64,000 nucleotides of DNA from [Candidatus Thermochlorobacteriaceae] bacterium GBChlB (GTDB lineage Bacteria; Bacteroidota; Chlorobiia; Chlorobiales; Thermochlorobacteraceae): positions 154,532-218,531 of the forward strand of contig JPGV01000020.1 of assembly GCA_000724175.1 (NCBI GenBank), in the 5' to 3' direction. The position numbers were made by a program, and so were the translations under genes. Of this stretch, positions 21,517 through 29,571 are shown piece after piece. Each line of letters starts with the position of its first letter. Position 1 is the stretch's first letter. The notes beneath the pieces were generated by a model. That model was not told the origin of the DNA and made no database searches. It saw nothing but the letters and a program-made list of their open reading frames with translations.

Positions 21517-21834
21517 TTAATTGACGAAAATTCCCAACGCGCAAAGTCCTTGCAAAAGGAAGCCAAAGCCCGCGCCAATCAGCAAGCCTAAAATAAATCC
21601 CTTCGGCTTTTGCGTAACAAGGAAATAAATCACAACGCCCACTGCAAGCACAGGCATTGCCGCCAAGAGCGGAAAGGTGAAGGTGTCATTACCGACGCCC
21701 GAAAAGACAAGCACAATGACGAAAAACAATATCACCCAGAAAAATATCGAGCTAAAAAACCCGACAAAGCCGCCAATCACAAACATCACGTTTTCGGCAG
21801 AACTGTCGGGAGGTGGTAGAGGTGTTTCGCTCAT
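21517..21834 (-). CDS. Small membrane protein, unknown
   Basis: The protein has 105 residues. It has a polar N terminus (about 15 residues) and then three hydrophobic segments at about 16-46, 55-73 and 80-103, the last glycine-rich (GFILGLLIGAGFGFLLQG). Its start overlaps the stop of the radical SAM gene by 4 nt, so it is translationally coupled to it. No family is recognised; it may be an accessory of the lipid-related genes upstream. Confidence 0.6.
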   Translation of the reverse strand: MSETPLPPPDSSAENVMFVIGGFVGFFSSIFFWVILFFVIVLVFSGVGNDTFTFPLLAAMPVLAVGVVIYFLVTQKPKGFILGLLIGAGFGFLLQGLCALGIFVN

Positions 21835-23342
21835 AGCGTTATCTCCTTTGCGAACATTGTGGCAGTGTATTCTTTTGGCGCGTAGTCAGCTTGAAGGTCT
21901 TTCAAACGCTGTTCTTTGTCGTCGCGGTAGAACATATTGAAGGTGTCGAAGGGAATCACGCGCCCGTCGGGATGAACGATGTGAACGCACGAGCGTTTGA
22001 CGGAGCGCACATCGAAATTGTAAGCGTCTAAAAATTGCATAATGAGAACGCGAAACACATTTTTGTAGCTCAGGTCTTTTGGCGCGAGAACCATTGGAAT
22101 ACAGCAGAGCAACTCTTTGAGCGACAGTGAACTTGATTGCGGCGAGTGCGACGTTGAAAATAATTTAACGATGTTTTCGCGCACGCCGTCGTGCTGTTCG
22201 TAAATGATTGTGCTGCCCGCCGTGTTGAGCAACACATTCGGGTCAATCAGTCCTGTGAGCGGCACCACATTGCCACCCAACTTCAACGCATAAGCCATTG
22301 CAATACAATCGGGGTGGCACGGCACAGGAATTATGTCTTCGGGCTTGAAGATGCTTGAATGCCGCAGAATTTCCTGTCGAACTTCGCCCAGTGTCAATCT
22401 ATCAACGGCGGGATTGTAGTTCTCGACTCGACCGGCGGCTTGAATCGGCTGGAAGGTAACGCCGCGCACGCACGGCTGCTGCAACGCGAACTCGATGATT
22501 TTTCCAATCTCGTTGTCGTTCAATCCTTTTTTAAGCGTAACGACCAGCGTCGTTGAAATGTCATACTTGTTCAATTGCTCTAAGGCGCGTAACCGTATTC
22601 GCCGTAAATCGGCGCCGCGCAGTTCCATCAACGCCTTTTCTTCAAACGAATCGAATTGTAAATAGATCTCGAAGTCAGGCATATAGTCTTTCAGGCGCTT
22701 GGCGAACAGGGCGTCTTCGGCGATGCGAATGCCGTTGGTGTTTACCATCAGGTGTTTAATTGGGCGCGCTTTCGCAGCATCAAGTATTTTGAAAAAGTCG
22801 GGGTGAATTGTTGGCTCGCCGCCGGAAATTTGGACGACATCAGGTTCGCCTTCGTTGCGCACAGCACAATCGAGCATAAACTCGATTTGTTCCAAACTGC
22901 GGTGCTTCAAGCGCTGGGGTGATGACTCAGAATAACAAACGGGACAGCTTAGGTTGCATCGGTCGGTTACTTCAACCAACGTCAGGCAGCCATGTTGTTC
23001 GTGGTCGGTGCAGATGCCGCAATCGTAGGGGCAGCCGTATTTAACCGGTGTGTTAAACTTTTTAACGAGTTGTCCGGGCTTCAAGAAACTGCGTTGCAGC
23101 TTGTAAAACTCGACATCGGTCGAAATAAGCACTTTCTCGTAGCCGTGTTCCGGGCAATGCTTGACGAGATAGACGCAGTCGTTTTGAAAAATAATTTTTG
23201 CTTCCGTTTTTCGAAGACATATCGAACAAACGCTGTTGGTGAGTTCAAAAAAAACATACGGACGATCTGCCATAGCCATACAAGATGTTAAAGTTTGACG
23301 AGACAACGGGACGACATTGCCTGAAAACCCCTGTAAAATCAC
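21831..23342 (-). CDS. Radical SAM protein of the Tes/MJ0619-like family
   Basis: The protein has 503 residues. The radical SAM cluster motif CNLSCPVC (Cys129, 133, 136) is preceded by CPYDCGIC (104, 108, 111) and an N-terminal CSIC pair (39, 42) with a later Cys63. This cysteine arrangement and the HGYEKVLISTDVEFY segment resemble the archaeal MJ0619/tetraether-synthase (Tes) type, which joins lipid tails by C-C bonds. GGEPTIHPDF is the SAM-binding GGE. It begins at GTG overlapping the lgt-like stop; ATG at 23279 is an alternative start. Assignment of a lipid-coupling function is inference. Confidence 0.7.
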   Translation of the reverse strand: MILQGFSGNVVPLSRQTLTSCMAMADRPYVFFELTNSVCSICLRKTEAKIIFQNDCVYLVKHCPEHGYEKVLISTDVEFYKLQRSFLKPGQLVKKFNTPVKYGCPYDCGICTDHEQHGCLTLVEVTDRCNLSCPVCYSESSPQRLKHRSLEQIEFMLDCAVRNEGEPDVVQISGGEPTIHPDFFKILDAAKARPIKHLMVNTNGIRIAEDALFAKRLKDYMPDFEIYLQFDSFEEKALMELRGADLRRIRLRALEQLNKYDISTTLVVTLKKGLNDNEIGKIIEFALQQPCVRGVTFQPIQAAGRVENYNPAVDRLTLGEVRQEILRHSSIFKPEDIIPVPCHPDCIAMAYALKLGGNVVPLTGLIDPNVLLNTAGSTIIYEQHDGVRENIVKLFSTSHSPQSSSLSLKELLCCIPMVLAPKDLSYKNVFRVLIMQFLDAYNFDVRSVKRSCVHIVHPDGRVIPFDTFNMFYRDDKEQRLKDLQADYAPKEYTATMFAKEITL

Positions 23343-24112
23343 GTCTTTTCAGGCGACACTGCAGAATTTGATTGAGACGCCATTTGAGCCAACAGTGCCG
23401 CAGCGTAAATCGCACCGCCGAGCGACGCCAGCTGAATTGCGCTGATTCCAAGATACGTTTCGGGGCGCGGTTTGAGAAACTCTATGAAAAAGCGAAACGA
23501 AAAATATGCGCACATCATCGTGCGAAAGAGCCAGCCGTTGACAAAAGGTCGCTGCATTCGCCATAAAAAAAATGCAGCGCATAAGAGCGCGAAGGCGATT
23601 TCATAAAGCTGTGTCGGGTGTCGCCGAATGCCATCGCCGAAATCAATGCCAAACGGAAGTGTTGTTTCCACGCCGCATGTGCCGTCGTCAAGTCCGGTCA
23701 GAAAACAGCCGACGCGCCCGATGGAAATGCCCAGCAAGAGCGGAAAGACATACACGTCGCCGGTCGCGAACGACACACCGAGCGATTTTTTAATTACCTC
23801 GACTGCCGCCCAGCCACCGAGAAACCCACCGACAATCGTTTTCCCTGACATTAAAAAACCGACATCGCTACGATGTTCCCAATACTGCACTGGCGCATTG
23901 AGCATGTCCAACCCTTTCGCGCCGACCCATGCGCCGAAAATACAGCCTGCGACAAGTTGCAAATTGTGTTCAAGCGGAAGTTCGGCAGGGAGTTTCCAGC
24001 GCGTGCGAAGTCGCAGATACGTTTGAAAACCGAGCGAATAAGCGAGCGCCTCGAAGACCAAATGCGGGTGCAGCTTGAAACCAAACAGGTCTATCCAAAC
24101 GGGAAAATTCAT
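23339..24112 (-). CDS. Lgt-like diacylglyceryl transferase family protein
   Basis: The protein has 257 residues and about seven membrane segments. Lgt-like marks are GKTIVGGFLGGWAAVE, GISIGRVGCFLTG, HPTQLYE and SFRFFIEFLKP. Compared with E. coli Lgt, the catalytic His of the HGG motif is Val94 and the Asn after GRxG is Cys136, while the arginines at 133 and 207 are kept. It is therefore probably not the housekeeping lipoprotein transferase. Its 3' end overlaps the radical SAM start (GTGA), so it leads the operon. Confidence 0.7.
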   Translation of the reverse strand: MNFPVWIDLFGFKLHPHLVFEALAYSLGFQTYLRLRTRWKLPAELPLEHNLQLVAGCIFGAWVGAKGLDMLNAPVQYWEHRSDVGFLMSGKTIVGGFLGGWAAVEVIKKSLGVSFATGDVYVFPLLLGISIGRVGCFLTGLDDGTCGVETTLPFGIDFGDGIRRHPTQLYEIAFALLCAAFFLWRMQRPFVNGWLFRTMMCAYFSFRFFIEFLKPRPETYLGISAIQLASLGGAIYAAALLAQMASQSNSAVSPEKT

Positions 24113-24287
24113 GTTTCAAAAACGAGATGAGGCAGTTCATTTGGAAACGGCGTCGGCAAGATACGCCCGACGACACGCCCTACAAAATTCTGCATTGAGC
24201 GTGTTACAAAATTGTAAAAAGTCTATTGACACAGATGAAATCGTGTGAAAGCGGCGTATGTTTAAGGGAACGCTAACGACTGATACG

Positions 24288-24986
24288 ATGAAAACGGCCC
24301 TCGTTGCAGCGCTTTGCGCTTGGAGAGTTTTCGCTATCTCTATTGTGTTGTTCGCACAAGAGGCTGATGAATTTAGCTCGCTCGATGACGCGCTCAAAGC
24401 GCCTGATAAGGTTACCCGGCTCAACTTGTCGGATAAAAAACTCTCGTCGTTGTCCGCCGATGTCGGCAAACTGACGAACTTGGTTGAACTCAATGTGAGC
24501 CGCAACCAGCTCTCGTCGATACCGCCAGAAATCGGCAACCTGAAAAAACTGCAATTTTTTTCAGCAACAGGCAATCAACTCGAAAGCCTGCCGAAAGAAT
24601 TTTTCGCGCTCAAAGAGTTGAAGCAACTCGTCTTGAACCGTAATCGAATTTATACGCTGCCACCGGAGATTGGACAGCTCACAGCTTTGCAGTATTTGGA
24701 CTTGCGAGAAAACAAATTGAGACAACTGCCGCCGCAGATTGGAAAACTTAAAGAACTGCAAACGCTCGACTTATTCAAAAACGATTTGGAATCGCTGCCT
24801 GCCGACATTGGAAATTTGACGAACTTGAAAATGCTGATATTAGGTCAGAACGAGTTGAGGTCGCTGCCGCCCGCTGTGGCTGGGCTAAAAAATCTCAAAC
24901 AGTTGGGACTGAGTCGGAACAAATTTTCCGACGCTGACCAAGCTGCCGTCAAGCAGTGGCTGCCGCAGGCGGAGATTAGTTTTTAA
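24288..24986 (+). CDS. Secreted leucine-rich-repeat protein
   Basis: The protein has about 232 residues. A hydrophobic N terminus ends near LFAQEADE and is a plausible signal peptide. From about residue 45, seven to eight repeats of 23 residues follow the pattern LPxxIGxLxxLxxLxLxxNxL, as in the ROCO/small-LRR class, for example LPPEIGQLTALQYLDLREN. The start at 24288 is preferred over 24258 because it gives a cleaner signal peptide. It is followed 99 bp later by a larger paralogue. A binding role at the cell surface or in the periplasm is inferred. Confidence 0.75.
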   Translation: MKTALVAALCAWRVFAISIVLFAQEADEFSSLDDALKAPDKVTRLNLSDKKLSSLSADVGKLTNLVELNVSRNQLSSIPPEIGNLKKLQFFSATGNQLESLPKEFFALKELKQLVLNRNRIYTLPPEIGQLTALQYLDLRENKLRQLPPQIGKLKELQTLDLFKNDLESLPADIGNLTNLKMLILGQNELRSLPPAVAGLKNLKQLGLSRNKFSDADQAAVKQWLPQAEISF

Positions 24987-25085: not shown

Positions 25086-26297
25086 ATGAGAAAGCTAACA
25101 CTGCTTTTTATTTTTGCCCTGACCTTCTCGGCTTGTTCGGAAGAAAAAAAGACCGACGGCTCCGATGTAAAAACCATCACGGCTGGAAAACTGCTCGACT
25201 CCGCCGACCTTGCTGCACAAAAAGAATACAATGTCATTGCCGACGCACTCAAAGAGCCTGAAAAAGTCTATCGGCTTCGAATCGGCGGAGGCAGCAGTGT
25301 GCTTTCGGCGCTCACAGCAATCTCGCCGCAAATTGCCAAACTCAAAAATGCGCAGATTCTTGACGTCAGTCAAAATAAACTCACCGAACTGCCACCTGAG
25401 CTTGGCGACCTGCCGAACTTGCAGACGCTCATTCTCGACCAAAATCCCATCGTGAAGATTGCGCCTGAAATCGGCAAACTGAAAAACCTTCGGCGCCTTT
25501 CGATGCGCAGCGATTCGCTGGTGAACTTCGCGGCGCTCTTTAGCGCGCTTAGTGCCGTGCCGAACCTCCAAACGCTGATCATTAGCGAGAACAACTTGAA
25601 AGCCTTGCCTTCCGAAATTGGCACGCTCACTTCGCTTCAAGAGCTCGATGTACAAATCAATCAACTTAGCTCGCTAACCCCGCAACTTGGCAAGCTCGTC
25701 GGGTTGAGGACGCTCTATCTCAACAGCAACCAACTGCGCGAACTGCCGCAGGAGCTTGAGCGACTCATCTTGCTTGAAAGGTTATATCTGGGCAGCAATC
25801 CGATTGACGCGTTCAAAGTCAGCACGACGCTCTCTAAGCTGCCGAACTTGAAAGTGCTGCATCTTAACAACTGCAATTTGGAAGAACTGCCCGTTGACAT
25901 CGGTCAAATCAAGAGTTTGGAGGTGATTAATCTGCGTAATAACCCGAAACTCAATATGACCAATGCGCTGAAAGTATTGAGCGCTTTGCCCAACCTTAAA
26001 GAAATTGATATGAGCAACAACCAGCTTGCAACATCGCCCAGCGGATTCGATAAGATTAAAAATTTGAGGGTGTTGAATTTGGGCAACAACAGCCTGAACG
26101 CGTTCCCGAAAGGCTTAGGAAAATTGAAAAAATTGGAGGTCATTGATTTGCACGACAACGACATCTCCAAACTGCCGAAAGAACTGGCGCAACTTAAAAA
26201 ACTCAAAGACCTTAACCTCAGAGGCAATAACGTCTCGGCGGACGACGCTGCAAAATTGGCAAAGGTGCTTCCGAGTGCGACGATTTCATTCAAGTAA
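25086..26297 (+). CDS. Leucine-rich-repeat lipoprotein
   Basis: The protein has 403 residues. The signal peptide ends in LTFSACSEE, giving a lipidated Cys17. Both LRR proteins share the acidic linker with DALKEPEKV / DALKAPDKV and the final PSATISF / PQAEISF cap, so they are paralogues. About 13-14 LRRs fill residues 65-390; three of them are longer than the others (for example SALSAVPNLQTL and STTLSKLPNLKVL). Function is unknown. It lies 23 bp upstream of the AtuA-family gene. Confidence 0.8.
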   Translation: MRKLTLLFIFALTFSACSEEKKTDGSDVKTITAGKLLDSADLAAQKEYNVIADALKEPEKVYRLRIGGGSSVLSALTAISPQIAKLKNAQILDVSQNKLTELPPELGDLPNLQTLILDQNPIVKIAPEIGKLKNLRRLSMRSDSLVNFAALFSALSAVPNLQTLIISENNLKALPSEIGTLTSLQELDVQINQLSSLTPQLGKLVGLRTLYLNSNQLRELPQELERLILLERLYLGSNPIDAFKVSTTLSKLPNLKVLHLNNCNLEELPVDIGQIKSLEVINLRNNPKLNMTNALKVLSALPNLKEIDMSNNQLATSPSGFDKIKNLRVLNLGNNSLNAFPKGLGKLKKLEVIDLHDNDISKLPKELAQLKKLKDLNLRGNNVSADDAAKLAKVLPSATISFK

Positions 26298-27795: not shown

Positions 27796-28659
27796 ATGTT
27801 GCTTAAATCGTCGCTGACCCACATCGTTGGAGTGTGTTTGTCTATTGCGGTGATTTCCGTTCACGCTACTGCCCAAAGCAAACTCATTGGGCGCGTAACC
27901 GATGGCAGTGGGTCTCCGCTCTCTGCCGTCATGGTCTCCATATCAGGACTGGCAGCGACACAAGCCGCGTTCTCCAATGCTGATGGCTATTATGTCATTT
28001 TGGGCGTTCCCGCTGGCGACTACACCATTAAAACCACCAAAAAAGGCCTACCAAGTTGGAAAAACCAAGTGAATTTGGCGAGTGGCTCAACCAAACGTAT
28101 TGATATTCAAATTGGAGCGGAGGGCGAAGAAAAACCTGTCGTTGCTGTTGCAAAGAAGAGAGAAGAACCTGTGAAGAAAGAAGAAAAGTTGGCAGAAGCG
28201 AAGGCTGAAAAACCGGCGCCCGATAAACCTGCGGACAAGCCTGTTGCTGACGCGTCGAAGCAATCCACGCCCGATGGCAACACTGCCGACGATGTTGCGA
28301 TACAAAAGGCGCAGGAGGAAGCTGCGCGCTTGGCGCAGGAGACCGCTGCGCTGGCAGAGAACGCCGCCGCCAATATCACCGAAGCGGAAGTGGAGGGCGG
28401 CATCAAATCGGTTTACCAAAGACTTCAATATCCTGAAATGGCTCGTCGCCAAAAGATGAGCGGACAAGTGGTTGCAAAAGTCTACCTCGATAAGTCCGGC
28501 AACGTTTCCAAAATCGAGCTCCTCAAAACTGCGCAAGAAGTCTTTAACGATGAAGTCTTCCGAACACTCACCGAAGAAGTTACCTACAAACCTGCTACCA
28601 TGGGCGGCAGGCCTGTTCCAAGTTCGCTCATCATTCCCGTCAAGTTTGAGCTAAAGTAA
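27796..28659 (+). CDS. CarboxypepD_reg / TonB C-terminal domain protein, copy 1
   Basis: The protein has 287 residues. A signal peptide ends near HATAQS. A CarboxypepD_reg-like beta-sandwich spans about 29-112 (LIGRVTDGSGSPLSAVMVSI, DGYYVILGVPAGDYTI). A long Lys/Glu/Ala/Pro linker follows at about 115-200, and the C-terminal TonB_C domain runs from about 205, with YPEMARRQKMSGQVVAKVYLDKSG. Unlike TonB there is no uncleaved N-terminal anchor, so the TonB-like module may sit in the periplasm or on the envelope. A paralogue follows at 28792. Confidence 0.75.
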   Translation: MLLKSSLTHIVGVCLSIAVISVHATAQSKLIGRVTDGSGSPLSAVMVSISGLAATQAAFSNADGYYVILGVPAGDYTIKTTKKGLPSWKNQVNLASGSTKRIDIQIGAEGEEKPVVAVAKKREEPVKKEEKLAEAKAEKPAPDKPADKPVADASKQSTPDGNTADDVAIQKAQEEAARLAQETAALAENAAANITEAEVEGGIKSVYQRLQYPEMARRQKMSGQVVAKVYLDKSGNVSKIELLKTAQEVFNDEVFRTLTEEVTYKPATMGGRPVPSSLIIPVKFELK

Positions 28660-28791: not shown

Positions 28792-29571
28792 ATGAAAATA
28801 ATTTTTTTCTTACTTATCATTTTGACGGCTACCGACAAGGCAACCGCATTTGGTCAGGGAAAAGTGTTAGGGCAAATCACTGACGACAATGGCTCGCCCG
28901 TTGGCGGTGCAACAGTGTCTCTTCTTGGCAACGGCTTAACGCAAGCCGCTGTCTCCAACGCGCAAGGATACTATGTTTTTCTCGCTATTCCAGAAGGGGC
29001 ATACACGATTCGTTCTACAAAACCCGGGCTACCGAGTTGGCAGAGACAAATTGCCGTTGCCGCTGGCACTATGCAGCAGGTCAATATCCAGCTCACATAT
29101 CAAGCGCAGGAGATTGTTGTCTCCGAATCGCGCCAGCGCGCTGAGCGCAAGCCTGAGGCTGATGACAAACCAAGCATTGCCGATGCACAATTGGATTTGT
29201 CTAAATCAAACATCAGCAAAGCGCTTGCCGATGCGCTCGCTGAAGCTGAAGCGCTCAAAGCAATTGATGAAAACTCGGTATTGCCAGACGAAGAGCCTGA
29301 AATCGTCGGCGGGCAGCAAGCCTTGTATAGAAACTTGGTTTATCCTGCCACAGCAGAGCGCGCGAAAATCGAGGGACAGGTCGTCGCAAAAGTCTACCTC
29401 AATGAAGCTGGGAAGCCAGTTCAGGTTACGCTGCTGAAAACGGCGCACCCGCTTTTGAACAACGAAGTCCTGCGCGTCTTGGTCAATGAAGTGAGTTTCA
29501 CACCAGCGCGCTCGGCAGGCAAACCCGTAAAAAGCACCCTCACGTTGCCCGTGAAATTCCAAGTCAAATAA
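28792..29571 (+). CDS. CarboxypepD_reg / TonB C-terminal domain protein, copy 2
   Basis: The protein has 259 residues with the same order as the upstream paralogue: signal peptide ending near ATAFGQ, beta-sandwich with VLGQITDDNGSPVGGATVSL and GYYVFLAIPEGAYTI, a shorter acidic linker, and TonB_C with YPATAERAKIEGQVVAKVYL. The linker is less lysine/proline-rich than in copy 1 while both ends are well kept, showing a tandem duplication with linker drift. An efficient terminator follows. Confidence 0.75.
   Translation: MKIIFFLLIILTATDKATAFGQGKVLGQITDDNGSPVGGATVSLLGNGLTQAAVSNAQGYYVFLAIPEGAYTIRSTKPGLPSWQRQIAVAAGTMQQVNIQLTYQAQEIVVSESRQRAERKPEADDKPSIADAQLDLSKSNISKALADALAEAEALKAIDENSVLPDEEPEIVGGQQALYRNLVYPATAERAKIEGQVVAKVYLNEAGKPVQVTLLKTAHPLLNNEVLRVLVNEVSFTPARSAGKPVKSTLTLPVKFQVK

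Follow-up and report, generated by a model that had tools for sequence, protein, structure and literature searches.

The window, that is, the whole stretch of 64,000 nucleotides analysed here, contains on its minus strand (positions 21517-24112) three ORFs that an earlier note on this DNA had described as overlapping by 4 nt. The first one (23339..24112, 257 aa) encodes a paralog of Lgt, proposed here as a diacylglyceryl transferase for a cysteine of the third product. The second one (21831..23342, 503 aa when counted from a GTG codon) encodes a radical SAM protein (rSAM) of the Tes family, and the third one (21517..21834, 105 aa) a small protein with three transmembrane (TM) helices, which is the proposed substrate or acceptor. 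Both overlaps are indeed present, and the first of them hinges on the GTG start of the rSAM gene at 23342, which homologues do not back. The conserved protein starts around M22/M24 (position 23279 or 23273), the more likely start as judged from these homologues, which would leave a gap of about 60 nt between the Lgt-like and the rSAM genes. The murA gene is found 39 nt downstream of the trio, whereas a leucine-rich-repeat (LRR) gene diverges from it on the upstream side. Two adjoining ORFs there (24258-24986 and 25086-26297), divergent from the trio, encode secreted or lipoprotein-like LRR proteins. A tandem pair of similar proteins is encoded at 27796-28659 and 28792-29571. The first combines a CarboxypepD-regulatory domain with a TonB C-terminal domain, a layout that the second, judged by eye, repeats.

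The trio is a conserved unit. A scan of the collection with an alignment of four rSAM sequences gave at least 559 relatives, of which 80 were kept (60-72% identical to the rSAM of the window), and 74 of these 80 show an Lgt-like ORF upstream of the rSAM gene on the same strand, with some of the exceptions falling at contig ends. Both genes occur together in 101 of 112 loci, at most 100 nt apart in 83, and their carriers, partly metagenome-assembled genomes, belong to at least eight phyla (Bacillota, Cyanobacteriota, Planctomycetota, Bacteroidota, Acidobacteriota, Verrucomicrobiota, Pseudomonadota and Actinomycetota). In a phylum sample of 392 genomes, where the hits cover about 20 genera, the Lgt-like gene is present in all 31 genomes with the Lgt-associated type of rSAM versus 4 of the 361 others (P = 6e-42), and among relatives in four of four versus none of 97 (P = 2.4e-7), in hypergeometric tests that assume independent genomes, an assumption that holds only in part. 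This survey of neighbourhoods supports the three-gene unit of the earlier note. The pairwise identities of the Lgt-like and rSAM proteins are correlated (r = 0.87), a value to which shared ancestry contributes. The extra Lgt-like hits of three genomes (G165, G224, G294) occur in housekeeping contexts and resemble an ordinary Lgt. A real orphan Lgt paralog of the trio type, without rSAM or small protein, is found in G111 (L193:4653-5498). The Lgt-like gene is absent from two genomes with a true Tes-type protein (G148, G324). In two others (G004, G124) the Lgt-like and rSAM genes lie on different contigs, yet both are retained.

Taken singly, the genes are paralogs of widespread families, and the locus could be read as an ordinary association, where a redundant lgt copy happens to lie beside a generic radical SAM gene without any common pathway. 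This explanation is hardly credible, as it is contradicted by the co-occurrence in the phylum sample, by the persistence of both genes when unlinked and by the family-specific residue changes described below.

Wider clustering of the neighbours in these loci gave no fourth conserved partner gene. ICMT-like and DUF4395 proteins were considered as core members of the unit and rejected, since they are seen only in loci of the same order or of the G215 type. In such a divergent module (L031:8883-9951, L032:8462-9516, L195:4784-5858), the rSAM is separated from the Lgt paralog by a membrane methyltransferase of the ICMT/PEMT kind together with a DUF4395 protein. A divergent module of Mycobacterium plasmids has also retained the Lgt-like protein, two Cys proteins and the rSAM (about 33% identical). 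In the trios of the Mycobacterium avium and M. branderi plasmids (L118:6126-9446 and L120:6304-9497), the C-terminal cysteines of the rSAM are present and the ligands of the N-terminal cluster are lost.

The Lgt-like protein matches the Pfam family LGT (PF01790) with 83.8 bits, over a cut-off of 24.9, and stays under the cut-offs of the NCBIfam Lgt equivalogs (54.7 versus 334 and 34.5 versus 118.9 bits). Its AF2 model (pLDDT 91) has a sole significant structural match, E. coli Lgt (5azb; TM 0.62, E 1.2e-6). When compared with the E. coli enzyme (5azb/5azc), the residues corresponding to R143, G154, Y235 and R239 do not vary in 102 Lgt-like sequences, and E243 corresponds to either D or E, whereas Y26 is changed to His in 98% of them, H103 to Val in 80% (otherwise mainly Met, Leu or Ala) and N146 to Cys in all. 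Three of the six residues required in E. coli Lgt (Y26, H103, R143, N146, G154 and R239; PMC13251419) are altered in the paralog, namely Y26, H103 and N146. In E. coli Lgt, H103 is part of the HGGL motif, a proposed binder of the acceptor peptide, and R143 and R239 serve the phosphatidylglycerol donor (PMC4728403). The conservation of the phosphatidylglycerol-site residues (both arginines and Y235), together with an altered HGGL motif, suggests that the paralog would use the same phosphatidylglycerol donor with a different acceptor. H103 is nevertheless essential in E. coli Lgt, where none of five substitutions complements (PMC4728403), and the replacements reported at this position in Lgt homologues are Tyr, Trp and Phe (PMC13251419); since Val falls outside them, the paralog may not be a transferase. 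Both Y26H and N146C occur in the second mycobacterial Lgt, MSMEG_5408, whose activity is presumed low (PMC13251419) and which may be a relative of the Lgt paralog of the trio. A separate housekeeping Lgt with Tyr at position 103 is encoded in this genome (G000:C47), and N146C is not diagnostic of the paralog because this housekeeping protein has it too.

The rSAM protein matches the Pfam families Radical_SAM (85.5 bits) and HMPTM zinc ribbon (59.6 bits), with no Pfam match for a SPASM domain. The earlier note had pointed out its resemblance to the tetraether lipid synthase Tes, and by fold Tes/GDGT-MAS of M. jannaschii is in fact the closest protein: the best PDB match is 7tol (E=2.7e-68; 28-29% identity) and the AF2 model superposes on 7tom with a TM-score of 0.75 over the whole chain. 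The protein reaches 293 bits with the Tes model NF045702, under its cut-off of 450, versus 493 bits for a bacterial Tes-type protein from the same phylum, and its best NCBIfam score corresponds to TrsS (NF045646, 328 bits), again under the cut-off (490). Most of the metal sites of Tes are kept: the rubredoxin-type site (C39/C42/C63/H66, CX2CX20CX2H), the N-terminal auxiliary cluster (C104/C108/C111/H114, CX3CX2CX2H) and the rSAM cluster (C129/C133/C136, CX3CX2C) are present in the rSAM of the window and in 109-111 of 111 homologues, and Met439 is mostly conserved.

The C-terminal region is different. At the positions of Tes C455, C456, C470 and Tyr459, the rSAM of the window has S, C, D and Ile; more than 90% of the 111 trio-type sequences read [ST]C...PF[DE] here, versus CC...PFC in Tes, bacterial Tes and TrsS-like proteins, and the loss of Tyr459, fully conserved in Tes, follows the same pattern. 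Judging from their conservation, the three Tes cysteines are probably the ligands of the C-terminal [Fe4S4] cluster, which has been proposed to store the alkyl chain as a C-S intermediate, with Met439 as a labile ligand (PMC9433317). Since two of the three are lost in the trio proteins, a C-C coupling of the Tes type by these enzymes is doubtful. The core group of trio rSAM proteins conserves extra cysteines (C119, C342, C413 and C414), which make a re-ligated C-terminal cluster possible. C119, C342 and, partly, C413 are also common to TrsS, a radical SAM (seleno)protein, although the TrsS-like genes on plasmids adjoin a class I methyltransferase instead of an Lgt gene and their products keep the Tes-like CC...C. 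In a tree with rows for the trio, the same-order ICMT/DUF4395 type, the Mycobacterium type, TrsS-like and Tes-like proteins, the Lgt-associated proteins (trio, same-order and Mycobacterium) form a cluster of their own, separate from the TrsS-like and Tes-like ones, a grouping with long branches and an SH-aLRT of 91, just below the star threshold. We have rejected the rSAM as a Tes orthologue (NCBIfam cut-off, C-terminal Cys pattern and tree) and as a TrsS orthologue (NCBIfam cut-off and neighbourhood).

These data bear on the lipid product that had been put forward for the trio, an unusual membrane-spanning or modified lipid. A connection with lipids through Lgt is likely. A free lipid, on the other hand, which would require that the rSAM couples the ends of acyl chains while the Lgt paralog provides diacylglycerol or rearranges it and the small protein acts as an anchor or scaffold, looks unlikely to us. 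The full-length fold match to GDGT-MAS and the preserved metal sites agree with this possibility, as do earlier proposals that bacterial Tes homologues make brGDGTs, which have never been confirmed (PMC8941075, PMC11868695). However, the replaced C-terminal cysteines, the lost Tyr459 and the position of the protein outside the Tes rows speak against a free membrane-spanning lipid, which moreover leaves unexplained why a multi-copy, scaffold-switching small protein should keep one invariant Cys.

This small protein fits no Pfam or NCBIfam family. Across an alignment of 32 sequences, comprising the window together with Bacillota, Cyanobacteriota, Bacteroidota, same-order and Mycobacterium members, a single column is invariant, corresponding to Cys98 (codon at 21541-21543, minus strand). 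The median pairwise identity is about 20%, versus about 43% for the Lgt-like protein and about 62% for the rSAM. Cys98 closes a helix that runs from Lys78 (KGFILGLLIGAGFGFLLQGLC; 21541..21603, minus strand), the proposed segment for recognition and attachment. The protein is single copy in this genome, where a search with profile A7 found no paralogous Cys-helix proteins elsewhere. By a combined count, about 100 of the 112 loci encode at least one Cys protein, and around 10 have no recognisable one. Small TM ORFs contain the Cys in 121 of 143 cases near the module, versus 26 of 73 elsewhere in the same loci (P = 6e-13). Control loci of the TrsS and Tes types have neither an Lgt-like gene nor a convincing Cys protein.

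The gene is most often found downstream of the rSAM gene, but its position and copy number vary. It lies between the two enzymes in Acidobacteriota, some Bacteroidota and Mycobacterium, and upstream of them in Paenibacillus; the small protein has also been found in Dyella loci. Two or three copies occur in eight loci (L034, L100, L105, L106, L109, L120, L147, L149). The Cys helix is usually the last of two to four, the first one in Acidobacteriota, and the only one in Paenibacillus, where it ends a zinc-ribbon protein. In loci of this Paenibacillus group, Saccharibacillus included, the zinc-ribbon protein (helix end ...LLLTICGAxxF) is encoded upstream of the Lgt paralog and replaces the 3-TM protein (L072, where the zinc-ribbon part was seen incompletely, L076, L077, L080, L082, L083, L086, L090, L091, L093 and L095). 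In a set of 122 helices, which includes a few spurious ORFs, a Lys or Arg precedes the Cys by 16-26 residues in 117, the rest being outliers or spurious ORFs, and the N-flank is more positive than the C-flank in 110. The Cys is thus predicted at the outer face of the membrane, where Lgt works. The helix has no standard lipobox, and its hydrophobic stretch sometimes runs on past the Cys.

The three TM helices that the first reading of this DNA had assigned to the small protein stand, and its behaviour resembles that of a substrate. One invariant Cys, hypervariability elsewhere, multiple copies, mobility within the operon and alternative scaffolds would be expected of a substrate and not of an enzyme subunit, so that the small protein is probably the substrate of the system, with Cys98 as its attachment site at moderate confidence. 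Its three TM helices and the close linkage of its gene to that of the rSAM would also suit an accessory subunit complexed with both enzymes, whose buried Cys could be a structural, metal-binding or redox residue, the true substrate being elsewhere; with only one residue invariant, unrelated alternative N-terminal parts, and copy number and gene position that change from locus to locus, we consider this improbable. An rSAM next to a small multi-copy substrate is in turn the usual arrangement of RiPPs, and SkfB and SuiB are among the next-best structural neighbours of the rSAM behind GDGT-MAS, with a match over the rSAM core only. The rSAM could accordingly modify the small protein, for instance through a thioether or C-C crosslink at the TM Cys, with the Lgt paralog acting later or as an insertion aid. 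The best whole-chain match is, however, a lipid enzyme. Moreover, the predicted place of the Cys is on the outer side of the membrane and not on the cytosolic one, the small protein does not show a hypervariable leader/core layout, and the Lgt homologue is left without an explanation, all of which makes a RiPP-like maturation rather improbable.

We favour a reading where the three genes would form one dedicated lipidation system, with the small membrane protein as its substrate. The last helix of this protein, which follows a positively charged loop in the cytosol and places the invariant Cys at the outer face, would mimic a lipoprotein signal peptide without the canonical lipobox. The Lgt paralog would move a diacylglyceryl group from phosphatidylglycerol onto the Cys as a thioether, and the rSAM would radically modify either the acyl chains once they are on the protein or, at an earlier stage, the donor lipid. 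As in E. coli Lgt, with its active site at the outer leaflet, the proposed acceptor Cys ends a hydrophobic helix preceded by positive charge; unlike the E. coli system, the proposed acceptor has no lipobox, its helix is usually C-terminal and the enzyme has a fixed radical SAM partner. Lipidation of the Cys tag by the paralog is suggested by residue changes that covary with this unusual acceptor. Diacylglycerylation of the small protein by the Lgt paralog, followed by tailoring of either the lipid or the lipidated protein by the rSAM, seems to us about evenly poised between true and false. That the rSAM acts on acyl chains or on the donor lipid we propose with little confidence, from its homology to Tes and its co-conservation.

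A further step can be contemplated only tentatively. The Cys helix would be a portable tag, independent of position, diacylglycerylated by its dedicated Lgt paralog, after which the Tes-family rSAM, which unlike Tes itself nearly always accompanies an Lgt paralog and a Cys membrane protein, would couple or modify the protein-bound acyl chains. The result would be membrane proteins with a covalent, radically modified and possibly bilayer-spanning lipid. A portable hydrophobic helix with a Cys as recognition tag recalls the MYXO-CTERM/myxosortase system (PMC11980579) and the 'lipo-invert' tail NF058595, although in the trio the Cys comes after the helix and not before it, and an N-terminal tag is possible as well. 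None of the trio small proteins reaches the NF058595 cut-off. An assignment of the small protein to this family was also rejected, with none of the 392 genomes over the cut-off and with its matches outside the trio genomes.

No description of the module was found in the open-licence PMC papers and curated families searched, and it is apparently undescribed, its parts being recognisable paralogs from lipoprotein modification. If the proposed scheme is true, bacterial protein lipidation would extend beyond N-terminal lipobox lipoproteins, and there would be paralogs of Lgt that have acceptors and radical partners of their own; a radical step on a protein-bound lipid would be categorically new. 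Many bacterial 'Tes homologues' taken as evidence of membrane-spanning lipids may then belong to this module instead. As such homologues serve to infer the producers of brGDGTs (PMC8941075, PMC11868695), the distinction would be directly useful, and a simple rule, C-terminal CC...C versus S-C...D/E plus an adjacent Lgt paralog, would split Tes from the module.

Finally, two loci (L107:7471-8040 and L066:7540-8025) encode ORFs resembling ordinary lipoproteins (MLRKKLLALGCAVAIVGVGAC... and MKARIVAFLGLGALVYGWAC...) between the Lgt paralog and the rSAM, at or near the usual place of the small Cys protein, and these may be alternative acceptors.
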